From: Thermococcus sp. 4557
Lineage (GTDB): Archaea > Methanobacteriota_B > Thermococci > Thermococcales > Thermococcaceae
Reading direction: 5' to 3'
Assembly (NCBI RefSeq): GCF_000221185.1
Contig: NC_015865.1
Location: forward strand, 1,798,001 to 1,862,000
DNA length: 64,000 nucleotides
Each line of letters begins with the position of its first letter. The first letter of the stretch is position 1. Below are positions 490-12,809 of this stretch, piece after piece. The position numbers were made by a program, and so were the translations under genes. The notes under the pieces were generated by a model. It worked only from the letters and a program-made list of their open reading frames with translations, had not been told where the DNA came from and did not search any database.

Positions 490-498
490 ATATATAAT
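490..498. promoter_or_regulatory. TATA element shared by the divergent isomerase and kinase genes
   Basis: The AT run ATATATAAT reads as a TATA box in both directions. It lies about 28 bases from the ATG of the leftward isomerase gene and about 47 bases from the ATG of the rightward kinase gene. No other TATA-like run is present in the 82-base gap, so one element may serve both, with the palindrome at 511-527 on the kinase side. Confidence 0.55.
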
Positions 499-510
499 GG
501 TTGTGTTATA

Positions 511-527
511 AACCACTTGAAATGGTT
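511..527. promoter_or_regulatory. 17-bp palindromic operator, copy 1
   Basis: AACCACTTGAAATGGTT is an inverted repeat with one mismatch. Two close copies occur at 2639-2655 and 4753-4769, all at promoters of this locus. It lies 12 bases upstream of the TATA box for the leftward isomerase gene and over the expected start site (about 519) of the rightward kinase. The centre-spaced TT-N-AA layout resembles the known TrmB operator class, so the TrmB-type protein at 8952 is the natural candidate binder; that link is inference. Confidence 0.75.
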
Positions 528-544
528 GTATTTTGGTGGTAGAT

Positions 545-1495
545 ATGATCGTTTCGATCGGTGAAGTACTCATAGATTTCATAGCCCTCCAGGAGGGGAA
601 GCTTAAGGACGTGAAGTCCTTCGAGAAGCATCCCGGCGGTGCTCCCGCAAACGTTGCGGTTGGTCTTTCAAGGCTCGGCGTTGAGAGTGCCCTCGTCAGC
701 AAGGTCGGCGACGACCCCTTTGGGGACTTCCTGCTCGAAAGGCTTCGTGATGAGGGTGTAAAGACCTACGTATCCCGGGATGCTGAAAAACATACTGGCG
801 TTGTCTTCGTTCAGCTCATCGGTGCCAAGCCGGAGTTCATTCTCTACGATGGCGTTGCTTACTTCAACCTGAAGCCTGAGGACGTGGAGACGGCCCTTCT
901 TGAGAACGCTGAGACAATTCACTTTGGCACCGTGCTCTTCGCCAGGGAGCCCTCTCGCTCGACGCTCTTTGGAATTTTAGAGGAACTTAAGGGAAAGGTT
1001 CCACTGAGCTACGATGTCAACATAAGGCCCGACCTCTGGCGCGGAAGGGAGGGAGAGATGCTACGGGATATTGAGAGGGCCCTCGGGCTGGCGGATATAG
1101 TTAAGCTCGGCGATGGGGAGCTGGCGTACCTCCGGGACAACGGAATAAACCCTGAAGACTTTGACTTCAAACTTCTCGCGGTGACCTTAGGTGAGAAGGG
1201 CAGCGAGCTGATGAGTGGAGACGCTAAGGTTCACGTCCCTGCTTATAGAGTCGAACCGGTTGACACCACCGGAGCAGGGGATGCCTTCACAGCTGCCCTC
1301 TTAGCCGGCCTTCACTACTCGAACCTGCTCGGTGAGGGGACCATCGATGAGGAGCACCTCAGAAAACTCGGACGCTTCGCAAACCTCGTAGCGGCGCTCT
1401 CAACAACCCTCAGGGGGGCCTGGAGCGTTCCAAAAATGGAGGAAATAGCGATAATGAGGGAGTTCAGGGAGCTCTACCAGCGCTCTAGGAGGTAG
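545..1495 (+). CDS. PfkB-family carbohydrate kinase (fructokinase-like)
   Basis: A 316-residue ribokinase-fold kinase. The N-terminal PfkB signature PGGAPANVAVG lies at about residues 30-40 and the C-terminal signature DTTGAGDAF at about 240-248, with the expected catalytic base Asp at about 246; both are intact. Family members phosphorylate sugars such as fructose or 2-keto-3-deoxygluconate, or myo-inositol. The YDVNIRPDLW stretch in the middle is common in fructokinase and KDG-kinase-like members, but the substrate cannot be fixed from sequence. The ATG at 545 is preferred over an in-frame TTG at 533 because GGTGG lies just before it. It converges on the glycosyltransferase gene, with 22 bases of 3' overlap. 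Confidence 0.85.
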   Translation: MIVSIGEVLIDFIALQEGKLKDVKSFEKHPGGAPANVAVGLSRLGVESALVSKVGDDPFGDFLLERLRDEGVKTYVSRDAEKHTGVVFVQLIGAKPEFILYDGVAYFNLKPEDVETALLENAETIHFGTVLFAREPSRSTLFGILEELKGKVPLSYDVNIRPDLWRGREGEMLRDIERALGLADIVKLGDGELAYLRDNGINPEDFDFKLLAVTLGEKGSELMSGDAKVHVPAYRVEPVDTTGAGDAFTAALLAGLHYSNLLGEGTIDEEHLRKLGRFANLVAALSTTLRGAWSVPKMEEIAIMREFRELYQRSRR

Positions 1496-2616
1496 TCCTT
1501 CTCCTCAAGGAATACCTTCGCCCTCTCCTCTATCAGTTTTTCGGCCTCAAGGGTGCTCATGTCCATCGTTCTCTTGACAAAATCAGCAGTCTTTGCGAAG
1601 TACAGCGGCACGAGGGGTTCCGCCTCGGTTAGAATTCCGTTTTTGTACGCCACCGCCCCGTCGTAGAGGACGTGGCTCCAGAGTCTGTCGTCGAACTCGA
1701 AGGTCTTGAGTGAATCCACCACTCCCTTGAGCGTCTCTTCGTCCAGTGCCCTCCTCAGCACCGGCTCGTGCTGGGCAAAGAGCTCCTTTGCCCTTATCTC
1801 CAGGAGCTCTAAGGTCACCTTTACGGACTCGGGTTCACCTTTCTCAAGCTCCCCGAAGACCGGAACGGGCTCTATCGTTCTCACGTCCTTCCAGACGTTC
1901 TCGTACTTCTCCATCAGCATGAACAGCGTTCCGACGACCTGGTTGAACATGGGGCCGAGCGATGCCGCCGGATCCTTGGGGTCGTGTATCTTCATTCCAA
2001 GGGCCGTCTGGGTGATTTTGAAGCCCCTCGCTATGGCCGTCGTCGTCAGGAATATGTCCACGCCGAAGCGAGCAACGTGCGTCTTCCAGACCTCCTCATC
2101 TTCGAGGTATACTTCCATGAGCTTTCTGCTCACTCCAAAGTCTCCACCTATCGGCTGCCTGACGTTCTTCCCGTAGAGCGAGGCCGTCATTGGGTAGGCT
2201 ATGTTGTTGGTTATGGTTCCGTCCCACTTGTGCCTTATGTAGAGCGGTGCCACGAAGTCGTAGCCCTCCGCGATGGGCTTGGCGAAGCGGTATATCCACT
2301 CGGGGGTTATGCTCCTTAAATCGCTGTCAACGAAGACGAGTGTATTTGCATCTCTTTCGAGGGCGAACTCCATGAGCTCCTTCATGGCGCTTCCCTTCCC
2401 CGGGATGGGCCATCTGTAAACGAAGCTGTGAACCTCGACACCATCCGGAACCTCTGTTCTCAGCACAGCATCCCTCGTCCCATCGGTGCTTCCTCCGTCA
2501 GCGTTGACGACGATTCCCCCTCCGAAGTACTTCTTCAGCCCCTCGGCGGCCTGCTTAACGACAAAAGAGATTGTTTCCGCGTTGTTGTAACTGGGAATTC
2601 CAACGATAACCCTCAT
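1474..2616 (-). CDS. GT-A family glycosyltransferase, glucosylglycerate/mannosylglycerate synthase-like
   Basis: 380 residues with a GT-A nucleotide-sugar domain: GIPSYNNAET at 6-15, NADGGSTDGT at 38-47, GKGSAMKE at 73-80 and a metal-binding DSD at 97-99. The order of motifs (GIPSYN, then DGGSTDGT, then PGKGSAM) matches synthases of glycosylglycerate compatible solutes and related retaining transferases. The helical C-terminal third is typical of that group too. Placement next to a sugar kinase, an ABC importer and a glycerate kinase fits a role in making or breaking glycosylglycerate, but the acceptor is inferred. The start codon follows a strong GGGGGTG site. The palindrome at 2639-2655 lies over its expected transcription start. 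Confidence 0.7.
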   Translation of the reverse strand: MRVIVGIPSYNNAETISFVVKQAAEGLKKYFGGGIVVNADGGSTDGTRDAVLRTEVPDGVEVHSFVYRWPIPGKGSAMKELMEFALERDANTLVFVDSDLRSITPEWIYRFAKPIAEGYDFVAPLYIRHKWDGTITNNIAYPMTASLYGKNVRQPIGGDFGVSRKLMEVYLEDEEVWKTHVARFGVDIFLTTTAIARGFKITQTALGMKIHDPKDPAASLGPMFNQVVGTLFMLMEKYENVWKDVRTIEPVPVFGELEKGEPESVKVTLELLEIRAKELFAQHEPVLRRALDEETLKGVVDSLKTFEFDDRLWSHVLYDGAVAYKNGILTEAEPLVPLYFAKTADFVKRTMDMSTLEAEKLIEERAKVFLEEKDYLLERW

Positions 2617-2638
2617 CCTTTCACCCCCATAAATTTAC

Positions 2639-2655
2639 AACCATTTAAAGTGGTT
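2639..2655. promoter_or_regulatory. 17-bp palindromic operator, copy 2
   Basis: AACCATTTAAAGTGGTT, an inverted repeat matching the copies at 511 and 4753. It sits 15 bases upstream of the TATA box of the rightward oxidoreductase gene and covers the expected start site of the leftward glycosyltransferase gene. This is the same reciprocal geometry as copy 1. Confidence 0.75.
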
Positions 2656-2669
2656 TATTTTGAAAAAGG

Positions 2670-2677
2670 TTATATAC
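2670..2677. promoter_or_regulatory. TATA element shared by divergent glycosyltransferase and oxidoreductase genes
   Basis: TTATATAC contains a symmetric TATATA core usable on both strands. Rightward it predicts a start about 25 bases on, close to the ATG at 2708 (short leader). Leftward it predicts a start near 2648, inside the palindrome. No second TATA-like run is seen in this gap. Confidence 0.5.
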
Positions 2678-2707
2678 TTTTTGCTCCCACAATCTTCGGG
2701 GATTCCT

Positions 2708-3715
2708 ATGGAGCTGAAGGTAGGTGTAATAGGCTGCGGAAACATATTCAACCTCGCCCACAAAAACGCCCTCAAGGTTATGGAGGGCACGAGGGTCGTC
2801 GCATGCATGGACATTGACGGAGAACGGGCCCGCGAGGGCGCGAGGGAGTTTCGGGCGAAGGCGTTCACGAGTCTCGACGAGTTTTTAGATACAGACGTGG
2901 ACATTGTGGAGATACTGACTCCGACGTACACCCACGCAGAACTGGCAGTTGCGGCTCTCAAGGCGGGAAAGCACGTGATAGTGGAGAAGCCGATAGCCCT
3001 CACCGTTGAAGAGGGCGAAAGGATGATAAAAACCGCCGAAAAGAGAGACCTGCACCTCTTCGTTGGCCACGTGAGGCGGTTTGACAAGAGATGGATGCAG
3101 ATGAAGGAGGTCATAAAGAAGCGCAACATCCTCCCCATGCACATCAGAAAGGCCGAAGTCCAGAACCTCCCCTTCCCCCGGGATTACTGGTACTGGGACG
3201 AGAACAGGAGCGGCGGTGTCGCCGTTGACCTCGGAGTCCACGTCACGGACTTCCTGCGCTGGTTCTTCGAGAGCGAACCGGTGAGCGTCTACGCCGTTGG
3301 GAAGGCCATAAAGGAGGAGGCGAGGGCAAACGGCACCTTTGACCACTTCCTAATGATGATCTCCTTTGAGGGTGGGAAGACGGGCATAGCCGAGGTCAGC
3401 TGGGCGTACCCGTACCCCTCGCGCTACGGTGTCTTCTACCACCACGTTGACATCATAGGAAAAAACGGCAGGATACGCTACACCCCGCTGGATACCCCTG
3501 TGGTCGGCGTCGCCAAGGCCAACTTCGAGATGCCCCGCTTCTCACCGCTCCTCTCGACCTTCCCGGATGCCTTCGAGAGGGAGCTGAGGCACTTCTTCAA
3601 CTGCATCAAGGGGAAGGAAGAGCCTGTAGTCACTGCGGAGGATGCATTGATAGCACTGAAGATCGCTGAGAAGGCCAAAGAGAGCGCCCGCAAGGGGGAG
3701 GTGGTTGAGATATGA
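2708..3715 (+). CDS. Gfo/Idh/MocA-family oxidoreductase
   Basis: 335 residues from ATG 2708; upstream in-frame codons are not preceded by a good promoter. The NAD(P)-binding loop GVIGCGN is at about 6-12 and the family motif EKPIAL at 93-98, with the lysine that helps catalysis. The C-terminal alpha/beta substrate domain includes GGVAVDLGVHVTDF. Family members oxidise or reduce sugars, inositols or their derivatives. It is the first gene of a pair: its TGA overlaps the ATG of the next oxidoreductase. The palindrome upstream of its TATA box suggests activation by the local regulator. The substrate is unknown; sugar or inositol dehydrogenation is most likely given the importer downstream. Confidence 0.85.
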   Translation: MELKVGVIGCGNIFNLAHKNALKVMEGTRVVACMDIDGERAREGAREFRAKAFTSLDEFLDTDVDIVEILTPTYTHAELAVAALKAGKHVIVEKPIALTVEEGERMIKTAEKRDLHLFVGHVRRFDKRWMQMKEVIKKRNILPMHIRKAEVQNLPFPRDYWYWDENRSGGVAVDLGVHVTDFLRWFFESEPVSVYAVGKAIKEEARANGTFDHFLMMISFEGGKTGIAEVSWAYPYPSRYGVFYHHVDIIGKNGRIRYTPLDTPVVGVAKANFEMPRFSPLLSTFPDAFERELRHFFNCIKGKEEPVVTAEDALIALKIAEKAKESARKGEVVEI

Positions 3716-4725
3716 GGAAGCTCAACTTCGGAATAATAAGCTACGCCCACCCCCACGCCCTTCGCTTTGCCTCAACCATCGCGGGGGGCAAGCAGACGAA
3801 GCTCGTGGCCATATCCGGCGACGGCTCCAACTCTGACGTAGCGAGGGGCGAGGCCAAGAAGTACGGGGCGAGGTTCTACAGAAACTACAAGGCACTCCTG
3901 AGGGATGAGAACGTCGAGGCGGTTTACATCGCAATCGAGACATACAGACACAAGGAAATAGCCATCAGAGCCGCCGAGGAGGGGAAGCACATACTCCTTG
4001 AGAAACCCATAGCCCTGAACCTCAGGGATGCGGACGAGGTTATAAGGGCCGCTAAAAAGGCCGGCGTAAAGCTCATGCTCCCGTTCAACCCACGCTTCAC
4101 AGAACCCCTGAAAAAAGCCAAAGACATGCTTGATAAAGGGGAAATAGGCCCACTGGAATACGTTCAGGCCATCTCGGAGAACGTTAAGCCCCCGATATTC
4201 CTCCAGGGTCTTGATATGGGCTGGTTCCTGGACGCGAGTAAGTCCGGCGGCGGGGGCTTCATGGACACGGCACCCCACGGTGTTGACTCCCTCCTCTGGC
4301 TCACGGGGGACCTTCCCAAGAAGGTCTACGCGGACATAGGCGCCAAGATATACGGTTTCCCTGTGGATGATATAGGCACCGCCGTCCTTGAGTTCAGAAA
4401 GGGCGTTCTTGCTGTTCTCACTGCCGGCTGGGGCAATCCGAGGGGCTACTCCTACGGCATTGAGATAAAGTACTACCTCGTCGGCAGGGAGGGCTTCCTC
4501 GACGTGAGAACTGCCTACCCGGACTTTACGGTCTACCAGGACAGGGCGGAGAAGATATACTGGGACAGGCCGGACGTCAGGGGGATTGTGAGCTCCTTCG
4601 CCAGGGCCGTCTTGAAGGACGAGGAGGTTCCAATAACCGGGGAAGATGCTAAGAAGAACCTGGCGATAATCCTAGCGGCCTACGAGTCGTCCAGAAAGGG
4701 AAAAACCGTGAAGCCCAGGGTTTAA
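3712..4725 (+). CDS. second Gfo/Idh/MocA-family oxidoreductase
   Basis: 337 residues, translationally coupled to the preceding oxidoreductase through an ATGA overlap. The EKPIAL motif is at 97-102 and the substrate-domain stretch GGGGFMDTAPHGVD is present. The N-terminal dinucleotide loop is unusual: GIISYAHPHA stands where the family has GxGxxG. That loop variant is known in a subset of the family, but it may change cofactor use. Two paralogues side by side suggest a two-step oxidation-reduction of one sugar or inositol, as in inositol and keto-sugar pathways. The importer operon follows after about 120 bases with its own promoter. Confidence 0.82.
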   Translation: MRKLNFGIISYAHPHALRFASTIAGGKQTKLVAISGDGSNSDVARGEAKKYGARFYRNYKALLRDENVEAVYIAIETYRHKEIAIRAAEEGKHILLEKPIALNLRDADEVIRAAKKAGVKLMLPFNPRFTEPLKKAKDMLDKGEIGPLEYVQAISENVKPPIFLQGLDMGWFLDASKSGGGGFMDTAPHGVDSLLWLTGDLPKKVYADIGAKIYGFPVDDIGTAVLEFRKGVLAVLTAGWGNPRGYSYGIEIKYYLVGREGFLDVRTAYPDFTVYQDRAEKIYWDRPDVRGIVSSFARAVLKDEEVPITGEDAKKNLAIILAAYESSRKGKTVKPRV

Positions 4726-4752
4726 TTCCAAACTTTTACTTTTTTGTAATGC

Positions 4753-4769
4753 AACCACTTTCAGTGGTT
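4753..4769. promoter_or_regulatory. 17-bp palindromic operator, copy 3
   Basis: AACCACTTTCAGTGGTT, an inverted repeat with one mismatch. It lies 13 bases upstream of the TATA run at 4783-4790 that drives the importer operon. The position upstream of TATA matches what is expected for activation in Thermococcales TrmB-like systems. Confidence 0.75.
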
Positions 4770-4782
4770 CTAAACACAAATC

Positions 4783-4790
4783 TTATATAT
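4783..4790 (+). promoter_or_regulatory. TATA box of the sugar importer operon
   Basis: TTATATAT lies about 55 bases before the ATG of the binding-protein gene at 4845, predicting a leader of roughly 30 bases that contains GGGTGATG just before the start codon. Confidence 0.6.
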
Positions 4791-4844: not shown

Positions 4845-6134
4845 ATGATTAGGAGGTTGTTTGGTGTTCTGTTGGCGGCGGTTGTGTTGTTCGCCGTAGT
4901 GTCCAGTGGCTGTATCTCCCCCGGAGGGGAGGAGAAGGTAACCGTGACGTTTCTGTCAACCCAGCTGAACCCGCCCGAGGAGAGGGCCTTCGTCCAGGAG
5001 GACCTTCTGAAGGGGTTTACATCGGACACAAACATCGAGGTTAATTTCGTCCCGATTTCCTACACGGACATGGTTACGAGGCTCGAGGGTGAGATGCAGA
5101 CTGGAAAGGTCACCATCGACGTCATAGGTGACCTCCACGGCGGTATGGACTATATGTCCTCGAAGGGCTGGCTCGAGGACCTCAGCACGATGCCCAAGCT
5201 CGAGGGAAGGACCTTCATCAGCACCTTTGAGCAGTACTCCTACATCCGCGGCCAGAAGGCCTACGTGCCATGGATGAGCGCTACCTACGTTATGGTCGTT
5301 AACAAGGAGGCCTTCCAGTACCTGCCGGAAGGGCTTACCGAAGAGGACGTCATGAAGGGCACCGACAAGTGGACCTACGATGCCCTCCTCCAGTGGGCCA
5401 AGAACCTCAAGGAGGCCAAGGGACAGCCAGAGCTCGGCTTCCCGGCCGGACCGAAGGGACTCTTCGTCAGGTTCCTCCATGGCTACATCTATCCGAGCTA
5501 CACCGGCTACCAGGCGAAGGAGTTCGACAGTCCCGAGGCCGTTGAGATGTGGGACTACCTCAAGGAACTCTGGCCCTACGTGCACCCGTCGAGCACCACC
5601 TGGGACGCCATGGCTGACCCGCTCTTGAAGGGTGAGGTTCTCATAGCCTGGGATCACACAGCGAGGATTAAGAACGCCATCGAGACCAAGCCGGACCAGT
5701 TCGTCGTTGTGCCGGTTCCGAGGGGACCGAAGGGCAGGGGATTCATAGTCGTCCTCGCCGGCCTCGCCATACCGAAGGGAGCACCGCACAAGGACGAGGC
5801 CTGGAAGCTCATAGACTACCTCACCAAGCCGGACACCCAGGTCAAGGTTCTGGAGAAGGTCGGTTTCTTCCCGACAGTTGAGGAAGCCAGCGGAAAGCTG
5901 CCCGAGGGACCGCTCAAGATACTCGCGGAGGGGGTCCAGGCCCAGGCGAGCACCGAAGATGCCCTCGTCGTCATGATACCGAACCTTGGAGACAAGGGAG
6001 GACAGTTCAAGGAGTACTACAAGCAGGCCTTCGAGAGGATAGTTCTCAACAACGAAGACCCGGCGACGGTAACCAAGGAGATCAAGCCCGACCTCATAAA
6101 GCTCTTCGAGGACGTTGGAGTGCCGGTGCCGTGA
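4845..6134 (+). CDS. sugar ABC transporter, extracellular substrate-binding lipoprotein (family 1)
   Basis: 429 residues with a signal sequence and lipobox ending at SSGC (Cys23), so it is a membrane-anchored binding protein. The body has the family 1 solute-binding layout, with TIDVIGDLHG, AYVPWMSATY and VLAGLAIPKGAPHKDEAW as in MalE-type proteins. It should capture a sugar or sugar-containing solute outside the cell and pass it to the permeases encoded next (13 and 0 bases away). In context the ligand may be a compatible solute or a disaccharide; sequence alone does not say. Expression probably depends on the palindrome at 4753-4769. ATG 4845 is preceded by GGGTGATG. Confidence 0.85.
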   Translation: MIRRLFGVLLAAVVLFAVVSSGCISPGGEEKVTVTFLSTQLNPPEERAFVQEDLLKGFTSDTNIEVNFVPISYTDMVTRLEGEMQTGKVTIDVIGDLHGGMDYMSSKGWLEDLSTMPKLEGRTFISTFEQYSYIRGQKAYVPWMSATYVMVVNKEAFQYLPEGLTEEDVMKGTDKWTYDALLQWAKNLKEAKGQPELGFPAGPKGLFVRFLHGYIYPSYTGYQAKEFDSPEAVEMWDYLKELWPYVHPSSTTWDAMADPLLKGEVLIAWDHTARIKNAIETKPDQFVVVPVPRGPKGRGFIVVLAGLAIPKGAPHKDEAWKLIDYLTKPDTQVKVLEKVGFFPTVEEASGKLPEGPLKILAEGVQAQASTEDALVVMIPNLGDKGGQFKEYYKQAFERIVLNNEDPATVTKEIKPDLIKLFEDVGVPVP

Positions 6135-6147
6135 AGGAGGAGTTCCC

Positions 6148-6999
6148 ATGAAACGGCGCTCTCTCGTTCCCTATCTTTTAATTTTACCGGCTTTCGCGTA
6201 TCTGCTGTTTTTCGTTGGCTATCCCCTTGTTCAGGCCCTCTATCTGGCCTTCACCCAGAACGGTGCCCTCTCCCTTGAGGTATGGCGGAGAACCTTTAGC
6301 GATTACTACTTTTGGAGCGCGTTTAAATACACAATCCTTCTGGCGGGTATCATAGTCCCGACCCAGGTTGCCCTTGCCGTTGTTCTGGCCCTTCTAATGA
6401 ACCGCGTTTTCAAGGGCAAGGACGCCGCCCTCTATGCCCTCATAATTCCCCTCACCATAAGCGACGTGGCGGCTGGTTTGATATGGTACTCCATGCTCTC
6501 CCCCTACGGTTTCATAAACAAGCTTCTCATGAACCTGGGGCTGATAAGCCAGCCGATATACGTATTCGGCTACGAATACCGCATGAGGGAGTTCTTCGCG
6601 ATAGTTATAGCAGAGCTTTGGCGCTCCACGGCGATAGTCTTTGTGATAATCCTGGCCGGCCTTCAGATGATAAGCAAGGAGTACATCGAGGCTGCCGAGG
6701 TCTTCGGGGCGAGCTACTGGACGAGGCTCAGGCGCATCGTTCTGCCGCTCCTGAAGCCCAGCATCCAGAGCGCCCTCATAATAAGAACGCTCTTCGCGAT
6801 GCAGATCTTCGGTATCGTCTGGATACTGGCCGGCAGGGACATCCCGGTTCTTGCCGGTGAGGGCTACTACCAGCTCACGGAGATAAAGGACGCTGGTGTT
6901 GCATCGGTCTACGCCCTCGTGATAGCGGGTCTCTCCATACTGCTCGGCGCGCTGTACATCAAGTTCCTCCGCGCTGAGTACCTGGAGGTGGGAGAATGA
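6148..6999 (+). CDS. sugar ABC transporter permease 1 (MalF-like)
   Basis: 283 residues from ATG 6148, chosen because AAGGAGGAG lies just before it; an upstream in-frame GTG would overlap the binding-protein gene. It has about six membrane segments starting with LVPYLLILPAFAYLLFFVGY. The cytoplasmic EAA loop is near 187-206 (YIEAAEVFGASYWTRLRRI), the contact site for the ATPase. It belongs to the CUT1 group that imports di- and oligosaccharides. The stop overlaps the start of permease 2, so the two are co-translated as a heterodimeric channel. Confidence 0.88.
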   Translation: MKRRSLVPYLLILPAFAYLLFFVGYPLVQALYLAFTQNGALSLEVWRRTFSDYYFWSAFKYTILLAGIIVPTQVALAVVLALLMNRVFKGKDAALYALIIPLTISDVAAGLIWYSMLSPYGFINKLLMNLGLISQPIYVFGYEYRMREFFAIVIAELWRSTAIVFVIILAGLQMISKEYIEAAEVFGASYWTRLRRIVLPLLKPSIQSALIIRTLFAMQIFGIVWILAGRDIPVLAGEGYYQLTEIKDAGVASVYALVIAGLSILLGALYIKFLRAEYLEVGE

Positions 7000-7829
7000 A
7001 CGACGAGACCAAGTACGCCCTCAAAAAGGTGGGGTTCTACACCGCCGTTTTCACGGCCGCGGTCTGGATAGTGATTCCGATCATCATCTCCTTCCTCTAC
7101 GCCTTCACCAGCAAGGCCGACTACTACGACCCGACCAAGATAATCCCGACGAGCTTCACGAGCGAGTACGTCCACACGATACTCTTCACCCTCGGCGCGT
7201 GGGACGGAATAAAGAACAGCGTCATAGTGGCAGTGCTCACCATCATCATAAGCTTCATCCTCGGCGTCCCGGCCGGGTACTCTATAGCCAAGTACATGTT
7301 CCCGGGCAAGGACCACATAAAGCTCTCCATAGTTGCCCTCAGGATGTTCCCGATTCCGGTCATGGCTATACCGCTCCTGGTTCTCTACATAGACCTCCAT
7401 CTGGCGGATACTCTCCTTGGAGTGGCGCTGGCCCACACGGCAATGGCGCTCCCCTTCGTCGTCCTTATAACGTCGAGCATCTTCGCCGGGGTATCCAAGG
7501 AGTATGAGGAGGCCGCGATGGTGTTTGGCCTTACCAGGTTCGGCTCCTTCAGGAAGATAACCCTTCCCCTGGCCCTTCCGGGGCTGGCCGCTGCCGCTAT
7601 GTTCACCTTCGTCATGAGCTGGAACGAGGTCTTCGTTGCCTCGATTCTCACCCTGAACAACAGAACCCTGCCGGCGCAGATACTCTCGATAATGGCCGGC
7701 TCCAGCGGCGGTGCCGCGCCGGACTACTACAAGTTCGCCGCGGCCTTCATAATGACCCTCCCGGCGATGCTGTTCATATTCTTCGCAAGGAAATATCTGG
7801 TCACAATGTGGGGTATAACGCTCAAGTGA
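6996..7829 (+). CDS. sugar ABC transporter permease 2 (MalG-like)
   Basis: 277 residues with about six membrane segments. The EAA loop (YEEAAMVFGLTRFGSFRKI, about 169-187) is clear, and the C-terminal end resembles MalG. It pairs with permease 1 (4-base ATGA overlap) to form the inner-membrane channel. The ATPase gene begins 9 bases after the stop. Confidence 0.88.
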   Translation: MNDETKYALKKVGFYTAVFTAAVWIVIPIIISFLYAFTSKADYYDPTKIIPTSFTSEYVHTILFTLGAWDGIKNSVIVAVLTIIISFILGVPAGYSIAKYMFPGKDHIKLSIVALRMFPIPVMAIPLLVLYIDLHLADTLLGVALAHTAMALPFVVLITSSIFAGVSKEYEEAAMVFGLTRFGSFRKITLPLALPGLAAAAMFTFVMSWNEVFVASILTLNNRTLPAQILSIMAGSSGGAAPDYYKFAAAFIMTLPAMLFIFFARKYLVTMWGITLK

Positions 7830-7838
7830 GGTGTTACC

Positions 7839-8942
7839 ATGGTAGAGGTTAAGCTTGATAGGATAACCAAAAGGTTTGGGGACTTTGAGGCGGTTAAAGA
7901 GCTCACGCTGGAGATAAAGGACGGTGAGTTCCTCGTGCTCCTCGGCCCGAGCGGCTGCGGAAAGACGACGACGCTGAGGATGATTTCTGGCCTTGAGACG
8001 CCCAGCGAAGGCAAGATATACTTCGGCGATAGAGACGTTACATACCTGCCCCCCAAGGACAGGAACATCTCGATGGTATTTCAGAGCTACGCCGTCTGGC
8101 CGCACATGAAGGTCTTCGACAACATAGCCTTCCCGCTCAGAGTGAAGAAGTATCCCGAGGACGAGATAAAGAGGCGCGTCAAGTGGGCGGCCGAACTCCT
8201 CCAGATAGAGGGTCTCCTCGACCGCTATCCAGGACAGCTCAGCGGCGGCCAGAGGCAGCGTGTGGCCGTCGCCAGGGCGATAGTGGTTGAGCCAGACGTT
8301 CTGCTCATGGACGAGCCGCTCAGCAACCTGGACGCCAAACTCAGGGTGGCGATGCGCGCCGAGATCAAGAAGCTCCAGACGAAGCTGAACGTCACGACCA
8401 TCTACGTCACCCACGATCAAGTCGAGGCAATGACGATGGGCGACAGGATAGCGGTTATGAACAAGGGCCGGCTCCTCCAGGTGGGTCCCCCGACGGAGGT
8501 TTACCTCAAGCCCAACTCCCTCTTCGTGGCGACCTTCATAGGCGCTCCCGAGATGAACACCATTGACGCGACGGTTGTGGAGAACGATGGCCTCTTCCTT
8601 GAGGGGGACGGCTTCAAGATACGCCTTCCGGACGACTTCAGGGAAGTCCTCGAGGGGTACATAGGAAAGGAGGTTCTCCTTGGCGTAAGGCCCGAGCACA
8701 TGACCGTGAAGGGCGTTTCGACCCTTGAGCACGTGACGAGGACTGCTGAGATAGAGGGAATCGTTGATTTCATAGAGGCCCTCGGTACGGACACGATAGT
8801 CCACGCCAAGGTTGGGGGAAACATCATCAAGATAAAGCTTCCCGGCCACATACCCCTGCCGGTTGGAGAAAAGATTAAAATAGAGATTGACCTTGACAAC
8901 ATCCATATCTTCGACAGAGACACGGAGAAAGCGATAATCTGA
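7839..8942 (+). CDS. sugar ABC transporter ATP-binding protein (MalK-like)
   Basis: 367 residues. Walker A GPSGCGKT is at 36-43, Q-loop FQSYAVWPH at 81-89, signature LSGGQ at 134-138 and Walker B LLMDEP at 155-160. An OB/TOBE-type C-terminal domain from about 240 onward (ending DLDNIHIFD) marks it as a MalK/MsmX-like CUT1 ATPase. All nucleotide-binding motifs are intact. It powers import by the two permeases just upstream. The TrmB-type regulator gene begins 9 bases after its stop, so regulator and transporter share one transcript. Confidence 0.92.
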   Translation: MVEVKLDRITKRFGDFEAVKELTLEIKDGEFLVLLGPSGCGKTTTLRMISGLETPSEGKIYFGDRDVTYLPPKDRNISMVFQSYAVWPHMKVFDNIAFPLRVKKYPEDEIKRRVKWAAELLQIEGLLDRYPGQLSGGQRQRVAVARAIVVEPDVLLMDEPLSNLDAKLRVAMRAEIKKLQTKLNVTTIYVTHDQVEAMTMGDRIAVMNKGRLLQVGPPTEVYLKPNSLFVATFIGAPEMNTIDATVVENDGLFLEGDGFKIRLPDDFREVLEGYIGKEVLLGVRPEHMTVKGVSTLEHVTRTAEIEGIVDFIEALGTDTIVHAKVGGNIIKIKLPGHIPLPVGEKIKIEIDLDNIHIFDRDTEKAII

Positions 8943-8951
8943 GGTCTGCCT

Positions 8952-9968
8952 ATGGAAGAAAAGGAGATAAAAGCCCGGCTGAAAGAGTTCGGTCTCAATG
9001 AATATGAGGTCAGGGCGTATCTTACACTCATAAAGAACGGAGCGCTGACGGCAGGGGAGCTCGCGACGCTCTCGAAGGTGCCCCAGCCCAGGATATACGA
9101 CGTGATAAGGACGCTCATGGCCAAGGGATTCGTCACGACGAGCCAGGGCAGGCCCAAACAGGTAATCCCCCTCAGCCCGGACAGCGTCATGGACGCTTTG
9201 AAGAGGCGCTACAATGAGCGGATTGACGAGATCAAGAGCGCTTTGGAGAAGCTCTACACTCCGAGAGGGGAGATTGGAAGCGTAACTGTCGTCAAGAGCA
9301 GGATAACGTTCGAGGAGCACGTGAAGAAGGCCATCGAGAAGGCCAGGTTTCATCTGAGCATTGCCGTTCCCAGAGAATTCCTTAGAAAAATCGGGGGACA
9401 ACTCGCCGCCAAAAAGGAAGATGGCGTAAGGATAAACCTCTTCGTTTACGGCAATGGTGAGATTCCAGCGATCGCCAGCGAAATAAGGGCTAGGGAAGTT
9501 CCTGATCCGATACTCATCATCCAGGACAGAGAAGAAGGAGTTTACCTGCCCTATGAGGCGCTGACGTCGAGCAGTTCTCTACTCGGCTACGGACTCATCA
9601 TAAGGGACAACAACCTCCTCTTCATGCTCAACCGCTACTTCTACCACGCCCTCTGGCCGACCGGGAGAGTAGTTTATCGCGAGGAGCGCAGGCTCAAGCT
9701 TCCGAGGGAGTACATCCACATAAGGGAGCTGGTGGAGGACATAAAGACCTTCAATCTGGAGGGGGCAAAGGTTGAGGTTATAGGGAAGTTCGTTCGCTCC
9801 AGGAAACCGGTACACCTCGTGGGCAGGGTGGTGGAGTTTTTTGAGGATGACAACAAGGTCATTTCTAACATTACCGTCAAGACCGAGGACGGAGCCAGGT
9901 ACGTCGTCGGCGGCTGGAACGCGTCACTTGAGGACATCGAGGCCGAGCGGATAGTCCTTTTCGAGTGA
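8952..9968 (+). CDS. TrmB-family transcriptional regulator
   Basis: 338 residues, the full TrmB length. An N-terminal winged helix (about 10-75, with ARELATLS-like LATLSKVPQPRIYDVIRTL) is followed by a short coiled coil and the TrmB sugar-binding region, including a phospholipase D-like part (HLSIAVPREF) and a C-terminal beta domain (about 250-338). TrmB proteins sense sugars and act as repressor or activator depending on operator position. It is encoded in the importer operon, directly before the glycerate kinase, so it is the best candidate to bind the three palindromes of this locus. That assignment is inference from proximity and operator shape. The sugar it senses is unknown. Confidence 0.88.
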   Translation: MEEKEIKARLKEFGLNEYEVRAYLTLIKNGALTAGELATLSKVPQPRIYDVIRTLMAKGFVTTSQGRPKQVIPLSPDSVMDALKRRYNERIDEIKSALEKLYTPRGEIGSVTVVKSRITFEEHVKKAIEKARFHLSIAVPREFLRKIGGQLAAKKEDGVRINLFVYGNGEIPAIASEIRAREVPDPILIIQDREEGVYLPYEALTSSSSLLGYGLIIRDNNLLFMLNRYFYHALWPTGRVVYREERRLKLPREYIHIRELVEDIKTFNLEGAKVEVIGKFVRSRKPVHLVGRVVEFFEDDNKVISNITVKTEDGARYVVGGWNASLEDIEAERIVLFE

Positions 9969-9988: not shown

Positions 9989-11311
9989 ATGGACGCCAGA
10001 ACTACCGCACTGGAGATTATGCGATATGCGATTAAAAGCGCCGACCCTTACCTCGCGGTGAAAAGGAACCTTAGGATTGAGGGGAACAAACTGGTCATTT
10101 CTGGTGAGAGGTTCCCGGTTGGTGGGAAAATCTATCTCCTGGCCTTCGGCAAGGCAGCGTGCTCCATGGCGAGAGCAGTCGTTGATACCCTCGGGGAGCG
10201 TATTGAGGAAGGAGTTATCATCACGAAGTACGGCTACGCAGAGGACTGCCCGAGAACGGAAAGGCTGAAGGTCATCGAGGCCGGACACCCCGTTCCAGAC
10301 GAGAACTCCCTCTTGGGCGGAAAGCTCGGACTCGAACTGGCCGAGAAGGTTGGGGAGAATGACATCCTCCTCGTCCTTATCTCCGGTGGTGGGAGTGCGC
10401 TCTTCCTTCTCCCTGAGGAGGGAATAACACTGGAGGACAAGATCGGGACGAACGAGCTCCTCCTGAAGAGCGGGGCAAAGATATACGAGATAAACACTGT
10501 GAGAAAGCACATCTCGGCAGTCAAGGGCGGCAAGCTGGCGAAGCGCGTGAGGGGTAGGGTGATAAGCCTGATCCTCTCGGACGTCGTCGGCGACCCGCTT
10601 GAGGCGATAGCATCGGGCCCGACCGTGAAGGACCCGACCACCTTCCAAGACGCCTACCGGATTTTAAAGCTCTACGGGGTCTGGGAGAAGCTTCCGAAGA
10701 GCGTTAAGAGACACATCGAGCTGGGACTGGGGGGGAAGGCGGAGGAAACCCTCAAGGAAGACCTCCCGAACGTCCACAACTTCATAGTTGGAAGCAACAC
10801 CCTCTCCTGCGAATCTGCCCTGGCGAAGGCGAAGGAGCTCGGCTACAACGCCCTGCTTCTCACAACGACCCTAGAAGGCGAGGCCAGGGAGATAGCCCTG
10901 GCGATAGGCTCGATAGTCCAGGAGATAGCAAAATACGACCGCCCGGTTCCAAAGCCGGCCGTCCTAATAGCCGGCGGCGAGTGGACTGTGACCATTGAGG
11001 GAAAGGCCGGCCTCGGCGGGCCGAATCAGGAGTTTGCCCTGAGTATCGCCAGAAAGATATATGGATTAAACGCCGTGGTTCTGGCGGTTGATACAGATGG
11101 AACGGACGGGCCAACCGATGCTGCCGGCGGGATAGTCGACGGGAAAACGCTTGGACTTCTCAGGGAAGCCGGGGTGGACGTCGAGGAAGTCCTCAGAAGG
11201 CACGACGCCTATAACGCGCTGGAAAAGGCCGGCGCACTCCTCAGGACTGGACCAACTGGAACCAACGTGAACTCGCTGGTGGTGGCGGTCATCCCGAAGG
11301 GACGCCAGTAG
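9989..11311 (+). CDS. glycerate 2-kinase (MOFRL / GK-II family)
   Basis: 440 residues from ATG 9989, which follows AGGGGTGAG; an upstream GTG at 9965 overlaps the regulator gene and is unlikely. Conserved features are LLAFGKAACSMA near 44-55, EAGHPVPDENS near 92-102, LLVLISGGGSALF near 119-131 and the C-terminal DTDGTDGPTDAAGG of the MOFRL domain. The enzyme phosphorylates D-glycerate to 2-phosphoglycerate, feeding lower glycolysis. Being last in an importer-regulator operon, it implies that the imported compound yields glycerate, for example from a glycosylglycerate or from non-phosphorylating sugar breakdown. Confidence 0.92.
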   Translation: MDARTTALEIMRYAIKSADPYLAVKRNLRIEGNKLVISGERFPVGGKIYLLAFGKAACSMARAVVDTLGERIEEGVIITKYGYAEDCPRTERLKVIEAGHPVPDENSLLGGKLGLELAEKVGENDILLVLISGGGSALFLLPEEGITLEDKIGTNELLLKSGAKIYEINTVRKHISAVKGGKLAKRVRGRVISLILSDVVGDPLEAIASGPTVKDPTTFQDAYRILKLYGVWEKLPKSVKRHIELGLGGKAEETLKEDLPNVHNFIVGSNTLSCESALAKAKELGYNALLLTTTLEGEAREIALAIGSIVQEIAKYDRPVPKPAVLIAGGEWTVTIEGKAGLGGPNQEFALSIARKIYGLNAVVLAVDTDGTDGPTDAAGGIVDGKTLGLLREAGVDVEEVLRRHDAYNALEKAGALLRTGPTGTNVNSLVVAVIPKGRQ

Positions 11312-12152: not shown

Positions 12153-12809
12153 ATGAGGTTGAGGGTTCGCCGTCGGCCGGTTAAGTATGCAAGGCTCGAG
12201 GTAAGGCCGGACGGAACGGTTGTTATCACCGCCCCTGATGGCTTCGATGTCGATAACCTGATCGAGAGGCACCGCGGCTGGCTCGAGGGCAAGCTGGCCG
12301 AGATAGGTGAGCTCAGGGAGATTGCGGAGTCAGGTTTTCCCATCAACGGTGAGTTCTATCAGGTCATCCACGGGAGAAAGCCCAAGGTTCACGAGCGGTT
12401 CAAGACCGTCGTCCTCTCCCCCAACCCCAACGATGTGGTCGACTGCCTGAAGAAGATCCTCCGAAGGGAGCTCCTGCCCCTCGTTGATTCCTACGCCCGC
12501 AGGATGGGGGTGGAACCGGGAAAGGTCTACATCAGACATCAGAAGAGCCGATGGGGGAGCTGTTCCCCCAAGGGGAACCTGAACTTCAACGTTCGCCTCA
12601 TAGCCCTCCCCCGGGAGCTTAGGGAGTACGTTGTAATCCATGAGCTCGCCCATCTGAAGCACATGAACCATTCAAAGGCCTTCTGGGAGCTCGTGGGGGA
12701 GTTCTACCCGGACTACAAAAACGCCAGAAAGGAGCTTAAGAAGTGGTGGAGCATCATAGAGCTCAATCCCTACTGGCGCTTTCTGAGCGGGGAGGATTAC
12801 CAAGGATGA
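12153..12809 (+). CDS. YgjP-like (DUF45) zinc metallopeptidase-related protein
   Basis: 218 residues from ATG 12153, placed 6 bases after AAGGTGA. The zinc motif HELAH is at 163-167 with a third ligand His at 173 (HLKHMNHSKAFW), preceded by QKSRWGSCS at 130-138, the hallmark of the YgjP/SprT-like family. The N-terminal half is a beta-rich domain. Substrates in archaea are unknown. The 3' end overlaps the convergent membrane protein gene by 47 bases. Confidence 0.85.
   Translation: MRLRVRRRPVKYARLEVRPDGTVVITAPDGFDVDNLIERHRGWLEGKLAEIGELREIAESGFPINGEFYQVIHGRKPKVHERFKTVVLSPNPNDVVDCLKKILRRELLPLVDSYARRMGVEPGKVYIRHQKSRWGSCSPKGNLNFNVRLIALPRELREYVVIHELAHLKHMNHSKAFWELVGEFYPDYKNARKELKKWWSIIELNPYWRFLSGEDYQG

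Follow-up and report, generated by a model that had tools for sequence, protein, structure and literature searches.

What protein reads a 17-bp inverted repeat that recurs at the promoters of one small archaeal locus, and what would its binding do at each of them? The locus lies in a 64,000-nucleotide stretch of the Thermococcus sp. 4557 genome (contig NC_015865.1, positions 1,798,001 to 1,862,000; hereafter the window), where genes for sugar-related enzymes and an ATP-binding cassette (ABC) transporter accompany a gene for a TrmB-type regulator. We conclude that the repeats are probably operators of this regulator, TrmBL5, acting in opposite directions according to their position, as judged from conservation across genomes and from promoter layout.

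All three palindromes listed in a preliminary description of the window are present: operator 1 at 511–527 (AACCACTTGAAATGGTT, dyad at 519), operator 2 at 2639–2655 (AACCATTTAAAGTGGTT, dyad at 2647), and operator 3 at 4753–4769 (AACCACTTTCAGTGGTT, dyad at 4761), the last with one mismatch to the consensus proposed at the time. As claimed, the palindrome occurs nowhere else in the window, even when three mismatches are allowed, and each copy lies at a promoter of the same locus with a TATA box adjoining it. The motif can be written as the 17-bp inverted repeat AACCAYTTNAARTGGTT, usually with TAC directly before it. Shuffled versions of the window contained a mean of 0.30 matches at up to three mismatches, and three matches were reached in 1 of 100 shuffles. 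The exact form AACCAYTTNNARTGGTT is found three times in the complete 2,011,320-bp genome, always at this locus, against ~0.007 matches per genome predicted from base composition; the two next-best matches, starting from 1354065 and 33420 as their listed positions, both fall within long open reading frames. The promoters serve four transcription units rather than the five transcripts originally supposed: a pfkB kinase gene, a glycosyltransferase gene (GT) on the minus strand, the dehydrogenase pair idhA-idhB, and an operon running from a solute-binding protein (SBP) through two permeases, an ATPase, and TrmBL5 to a glycerate kinase.

The 338-aa regulator (8952–9968, plus strand) belongs to the TrmB family, as already recognized, with an N-terminal PF01978 helix-turn-helix and a C-terminal PF11495 effector domain both scoring above the gathering cut-off. 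It is not a TrmBL1 equivalog (137.9 bits versus the NCBIfam NF047390 cut-off of 650 bits). Its orthologue in T. barophilus, TERMP_01835, sits in the same gene neighborhood. Published qPCR (quantitative PCR) primers for TERMP_01835 (PMC10667668) match the gene at locus L074 without mismatch, and the published coordinates 1,624,822–1,624,836 yield the published sequence type TACT-N6-AGATA in genome G086; we therefore take G086 to be, very probably, the T. barophilus sequence of that study and identify the regulator as TrmBL5. In a maximum-likelihood tree, TrmBL5 proteins form a single clade (support 97/96) beside TrmBL4 and apart from TrmB and TrmBL1. Their recognition helix, VPQPRIYD, is nearly invariant. 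Measured against the residues listed for the family (PMC4158304), the DNA-contacting tyrosine and aspartate (Y49/D50) are invariant across TrmBL5, and the sugar-contacting glycine and glutamate are kept at the positions aligned to G320/E326. TrmBL5 is thus an already named regulator whose role has been reported as unclear, and to which no operator or regulon had been assigned.

Orthologues of the regulator (52–91% identity) occur in five of the six genera of the order, with the same neighborhood wherever contigs allow it to be seen. A search of genome contigs with an alignment returned Thermococcales/Thermococci records only; scanning the contigs with a single protein gave no match. The preliminary description had named a lack of conservation upstream of orthologous genes as a ground for refutation, but the palindrome proved to be conserved there in five genera of the Thermococcaceae. 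Counting genomes that encode TrmBL5 and have a readable promoter, the site is present in every case for SBP (36/36) and GT (34/34) and in 34/35 cases for idhA. The single exception (G076, locus L079) retains the site, split from idhA by an insertion; this locus is a natural disruption, with insertions both in the GT–idhA spacer and inside idhB, which is itself split. When the SBP promoters were aligned without anchoring on the site, the best-conserved 17-bp window was the site itself (1.61 bits per column, mean 0.63). For the idhA promoters the best window lay three bases off the site (1.53 bits per column, mean 0.83), with the site at 1.50. Exact sites were found in 21 of 61 genomes of the genus, all 21 of which encode TrmBL5, and those that could be placed lie at this locus; the reversed pattern had no exact match in the same 61 genomes. 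These counts agree with the earlier suggestion of a small regulon. A wider one was considered and rejected, with the near-misses in this genome being intragenic and off-locus one-mismatch matches about as frequent as those of the reversed control.

The pfkB site is weaker, being present in 11 of 18 genomes with pfkB. In four of the 11 (L036, L039, L041, and L043) the standard operator upstream of pfkB is replaced by AACAACCAAAAGTTGTT, a palindrome of the form AACAAC...GTTGTT, which could be either a tuned operator or the product of drift. In several genomes pfkB sits behind another gene and lacks an operator; at the g4–g6 loci examined, no pfkB was found. The pfkB site is lineage-specific, and the other two sites form the conserved core.

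Genomes lacking the regulator offer a natural control. Eleven genomes (G013, G039, G056, and eight of genus g3) retain idhA-idhB in the absence of the regulator and transporter at the locus, and in nine of the 11 the divergent GT is present as well. The palindrome is found at none of the 11 idhA promoters (0/11). We take g3 to be Pyrococcus. The two-way table for idhA (34/35 versus 0/11) gives p ~1e-9 by hand calculation, a value overstated by the relatedness of the genomes. G039 aligns with its relatives through the promoter and carries a decayed operator (TTTACGGCTATTTGAGGTTGTTT versus TTTACAACCATTTAAAGTGGTTT) beside a preserved TATA box. G080, a degraded locus in which the DNA-binding domain of the regulator is deleted, has no site. 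In G078 the transporter has been lost, the regulator is kept directly behind idhB, and so is the GT/idhA site. Together with the conservation of site and regulator, the 0/11 result supports the original proposal that the palindromes are operators of the TrmB-type protein encoded beside them, and TrmBL5 is very likely their cognate regulator.

Separately, the idhA upstream regions of seven g3 genomes (L137–L143) share another conserved element, CCGTCACTTTTTT or a near variant, which is absent at L144 and may be bound by some other regulator.

The geometry of the promoters suggests how the sites might work. At each of the window's four promoters, 25–26 bp separate the dyad from the TATA center. 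At pfkB, the dyad of operator 1 follows the TATA box (491–496, plus strand) by 25–26 bp and falls at the expected start site, which is a repressor position; at SBP, the dyad of operator 3 precedes the TATA box (4783–4789, plus strand) by 25 bp, an activator position. Operator 2 is both at once, 26 bp upstream of the idhA TATA box and 26 bp downstream of it on the strand of GT, which appears to use that same box. Across genomes, the TATA match begins 11–16 bp past the site at idhA and SBP (11–13 bp in all 36 SBP promoters), leaving room for a transcription factor B recognition element (BRE). TrmBL1 and Tgr follow a rule whereby they activate from sites upstream and repress from sites at the transcription start (PMC4158304), and by analogy we consider a corresponding split at the TrmBL5 operators reasonably likely. 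A TrmBL5 dimer would bind the repeat through its TrmB-type recognition helix. Once bound, it would activate idhAB and the SBP–ABC–TrmBL5–glycerate kinase operon, where the operator lies upstream of BRE and TATA, and would repress GT, along with pfkB where that site exists. The bound state would depend on a sugar-type ligand, recognized by the C-terminal domain, that either establishes or ends it. Autoregulation would be part of the scheme: the six genes from SBP to glycerate kinase are closely spaced behind operator 3, which puts the regulator under its own operator, and the TrmBL5 gene starts 9 nt after the ATPase gene, so it is probably co-transcribed with the transporter.

At the divergent GT–idhA promoter a single conserved TATA box (TTATATA, or TATATAA on the minus strand; 2670–2676) appears to be common to both genes. 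It is flanked on the side used for idhA by a BRE-like run of A (GAAAAAGG, 2662–2669, plus strand, defined by conserved alignment columns) and on the other by GCAAAAAG (2677–2684, minus strand), an instance of the CTTTYG/CTTTTG conserved after the TATA box in nearly all idhA promoters with a divergent GT. On the GT strand this element reads CRAAAG/CAAAAG, which is BRE-like. G039 and G056, both lacking a divergent GT, do not have it, nor does G076, in which the insertion intervenes. Conservation ends right after the TATA box at the SBP promoter and continues past it at GT–idhA. The BRE-like conservation on both sides, together with loss of the reverse element where there is no divergent GT, therefore points to a shared TATA box, which we hold with middling confidence. 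At this promoter, binding to the lone operator would favor idhA and block GT. More tentatively, one TATA box with two flanking BREs and one operator may form a direction switch in which the same bound dimer draws transcription toward idhAB and shuts it off toward GT.

Several points weigh against this interpretation. The genomes are related and the counts are not independent, so that the weight is carried by the three or four absences that look separate. The genomes without TrmBL5 also lack the transporter, and any other factor lost along with it would produce the same pattern. TrmB represses from a site at the BRE/TATA box (PMC4158304), and activation does not necessarily follow from an upstream location. 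Adding sugar had only a slight effect on TERMP_01835 in T. barophilus (PMC10667668), and maltose is therefore no obvious ligand. In an alternative that is possible but doubtful, TrmBL5 binds the palindromes and represses all four promoters, with its ligand as inducer, as TrmB does from TACT-N3-AGTA at the trehalose/maltose operon (PMC4158304). That ABC operons are often substrate-induced would suit such a scheme. The gap between site and TATA box at idhA and SBP, however, corresponds to the space for a BRE and to where activating TGM sites lie (PMC4158304), and at GT and pfkB it is the reverse arrangement that has been conserved.

Binding by a regulator encoded elsewhere would fit the co-loss pattern equally, and the core of the palindrome does resemble the boxes of other TrmB paralogues. 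We nevertheless judge it improbable: G013 has a TrmBL1-type paralogue yet no sites, G078 keeps both TrmBL5 and a site without the transporter, deletion of TrmBL4 in T. barophilus left this cluster unaffected (PMC10667668), and TrmBL5 is the sole regulator encoded in the conserved locus. Perfect inverted repeats could also act at the RNA level, as hairpins or attenuators within 5' leaders, but the idhA and SBP repeats precede the TATA box and fall outside the transcript, and the conserved TAC flank and fixed distance to TATA point to recognition of DNA, which makes this explanation very improbable. Least credible is that the repeats reflect chance or the shared ancestry of a promoter block free of selection on the site. 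Flanking sequence is indeed common among close relatives; the site, though, is better conserved than its flanks, persists where regulators share as little as 52% and up to 91% identity, and is lost or decayed where the regulator is missing. A chance origin in itself was ruled out by the whole-genome count, the shuffles, and the conservation. We therefore assign high confidence to the pairing of TrmBL5 with the palindromes and moderate confidence to dual control, and regard the locus as a real, well-conserved, single-locus regulon of a named but uncharacterized TrmB-family member with a new operator specificity.

The genes under this proposed control include, on the plus strand, the PfkB-family sugar kinase (545–1495; PF00294), whose closest solved relative is PH1459 (PDB 3ewm, E 7e-100), and the Gfo/Idh/MocA dehydrogenases idhA (2708–3715) and idhB (3712–4725), assigned by family searches. 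GT (1474–2616, minus strand) is related to mannosylglycerate synthase and glucosyl-3-phosphoglycerate synthase (PF21969, PRK13915), its relation to the solved structures PDB 2y4k/7p5l having been established by sequence. The plus-strand operon comprises SBP (4845–6134; PF01547), permeases 1 (6148–6999) and 2 (6996–7829; both PF00528), a MalK/UgpC-type ATPase (7839–8942; PF00005 and PF17912, with NF008653 above its cut-off), TrmBL5, and a glycerate 2-kinase of the MOFRL family (9989–11311; PF13660 and PF05161, with the best model, NF041176, below its cut-off), which closes the operon in genera g1 and g2. The presence of GT beside a glycerate 2-kinase suggests glycosyl-glycerate metabolism, and we infer that the importer and the two dehydrogenases would lie on the regulatory arm opposite to GT. 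A link to mannosylglycerate synthesis of the MpgS type, the known route in the order, was rejected: MpgS is encoded in 58 of 94 genomes without any evident tie to the locus, and the present genome has no MpgS. Solved relatives of the binding protein gave weak, mixed matches as to transporter substrate. A literature search covering the motif, TrmBL5, and the pathway of the locus turned up one paper that names TrmBL5 and nothing about the pathway.

Similarity to the window is uneven among the transporter genes. At L037, L055, and L084 the binding protein and permeases are 60–67% similar to those of the window, versus 77–97% for their neighbors; at L039 and L044 they are nearly identical (98–100%). 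This suggests that the transporter has been replaced by gene exchange under the same operator.

Work on T. barophilus places these results in context. A single site upstream of TERMP_01840, TACTTAAAGGAGATA, was proposed there from a screen for TrmBL4 sites, and the cluster was more expressed at high pressure (PMC10667668). The palindrome in G086 lies at 1,624,854–1,624,870, ~18 bp from the proposed site and different in sequence. The proposed site itself (L074, 13823–13837) lacks palindromic symmetry and sits shortly after a TATA box; the nearby palindrome went unremarked in that work. TrmBL5 thus gains a testable candidate operator and target list, and the palindrome may explain why published TrmB and TGM motifs found little in T. 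barophilus and T. piezophilus promoters. The regulator of a pressure-responsive transporter operon is of interest to piezophysiology, and the GT–idhA promoter offers a clean case for studying the choice of promoter direction in archaea and activation and repression by one factor.

The palindrome had been described as distinct from the TGM box, TATCAC-N5-GTGATA, recognized by TrmBL1 of P. furiosus and Tgr of T. kodakarensis. That distinction holds for the outer triplets, which are AAC/GTT rather than TAT/ATA, but not for the rest: the two share the 17-bp length, the center, and the CAC-N5-GTG core, and both are placed either upstream of TATA or at +1. No TGM box within two mismatches was found near these promoters, and the lone match in the window, at 12224, is at chance level. 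The TrmBL1/Tgr regulon is glycolysis-wide, whereas the TrmBL5 palindrome is confined to one locus. Like TrmB of P. furiosus and T. litoralis, TrmBL5 would act locally on a neighboring sugar ABC operon; unlike TrmB, it would control further enzymes and a divergent promoter. The palindrome also holds the ACT-N3-AGT core of the TrmB box (TACT-N3-AGTA) in register. It differs from that box in reading CACT...AGTG with conserved outer AAC/GTT and in not overlapping the TATA box; a TrmB operator at BRE/TATA is not found here, operator 3 being CACT-N3-AGTG and clear of TATA. Aligned on their dyads, the TGM (TATCACNNNNNGTGATA), TrmBL5 (AACCACTTNAAGTGGTT), and TrmB (nnnTACTNNNAGTAnnn) boxes have length, center, and an inner A-C...G-T in common and differ in their outer triplets. 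This kinship favors binding by a member of the TrmB family. The recognition helices vary in step with the boxes (PHTRVYDV in TrmBL1, PYNRVYDT in TrmB, PQPRIYDV in TrmBL5), and the three in-register boxes together with their helices provide a compact system for the DNA-recognition code of the family.

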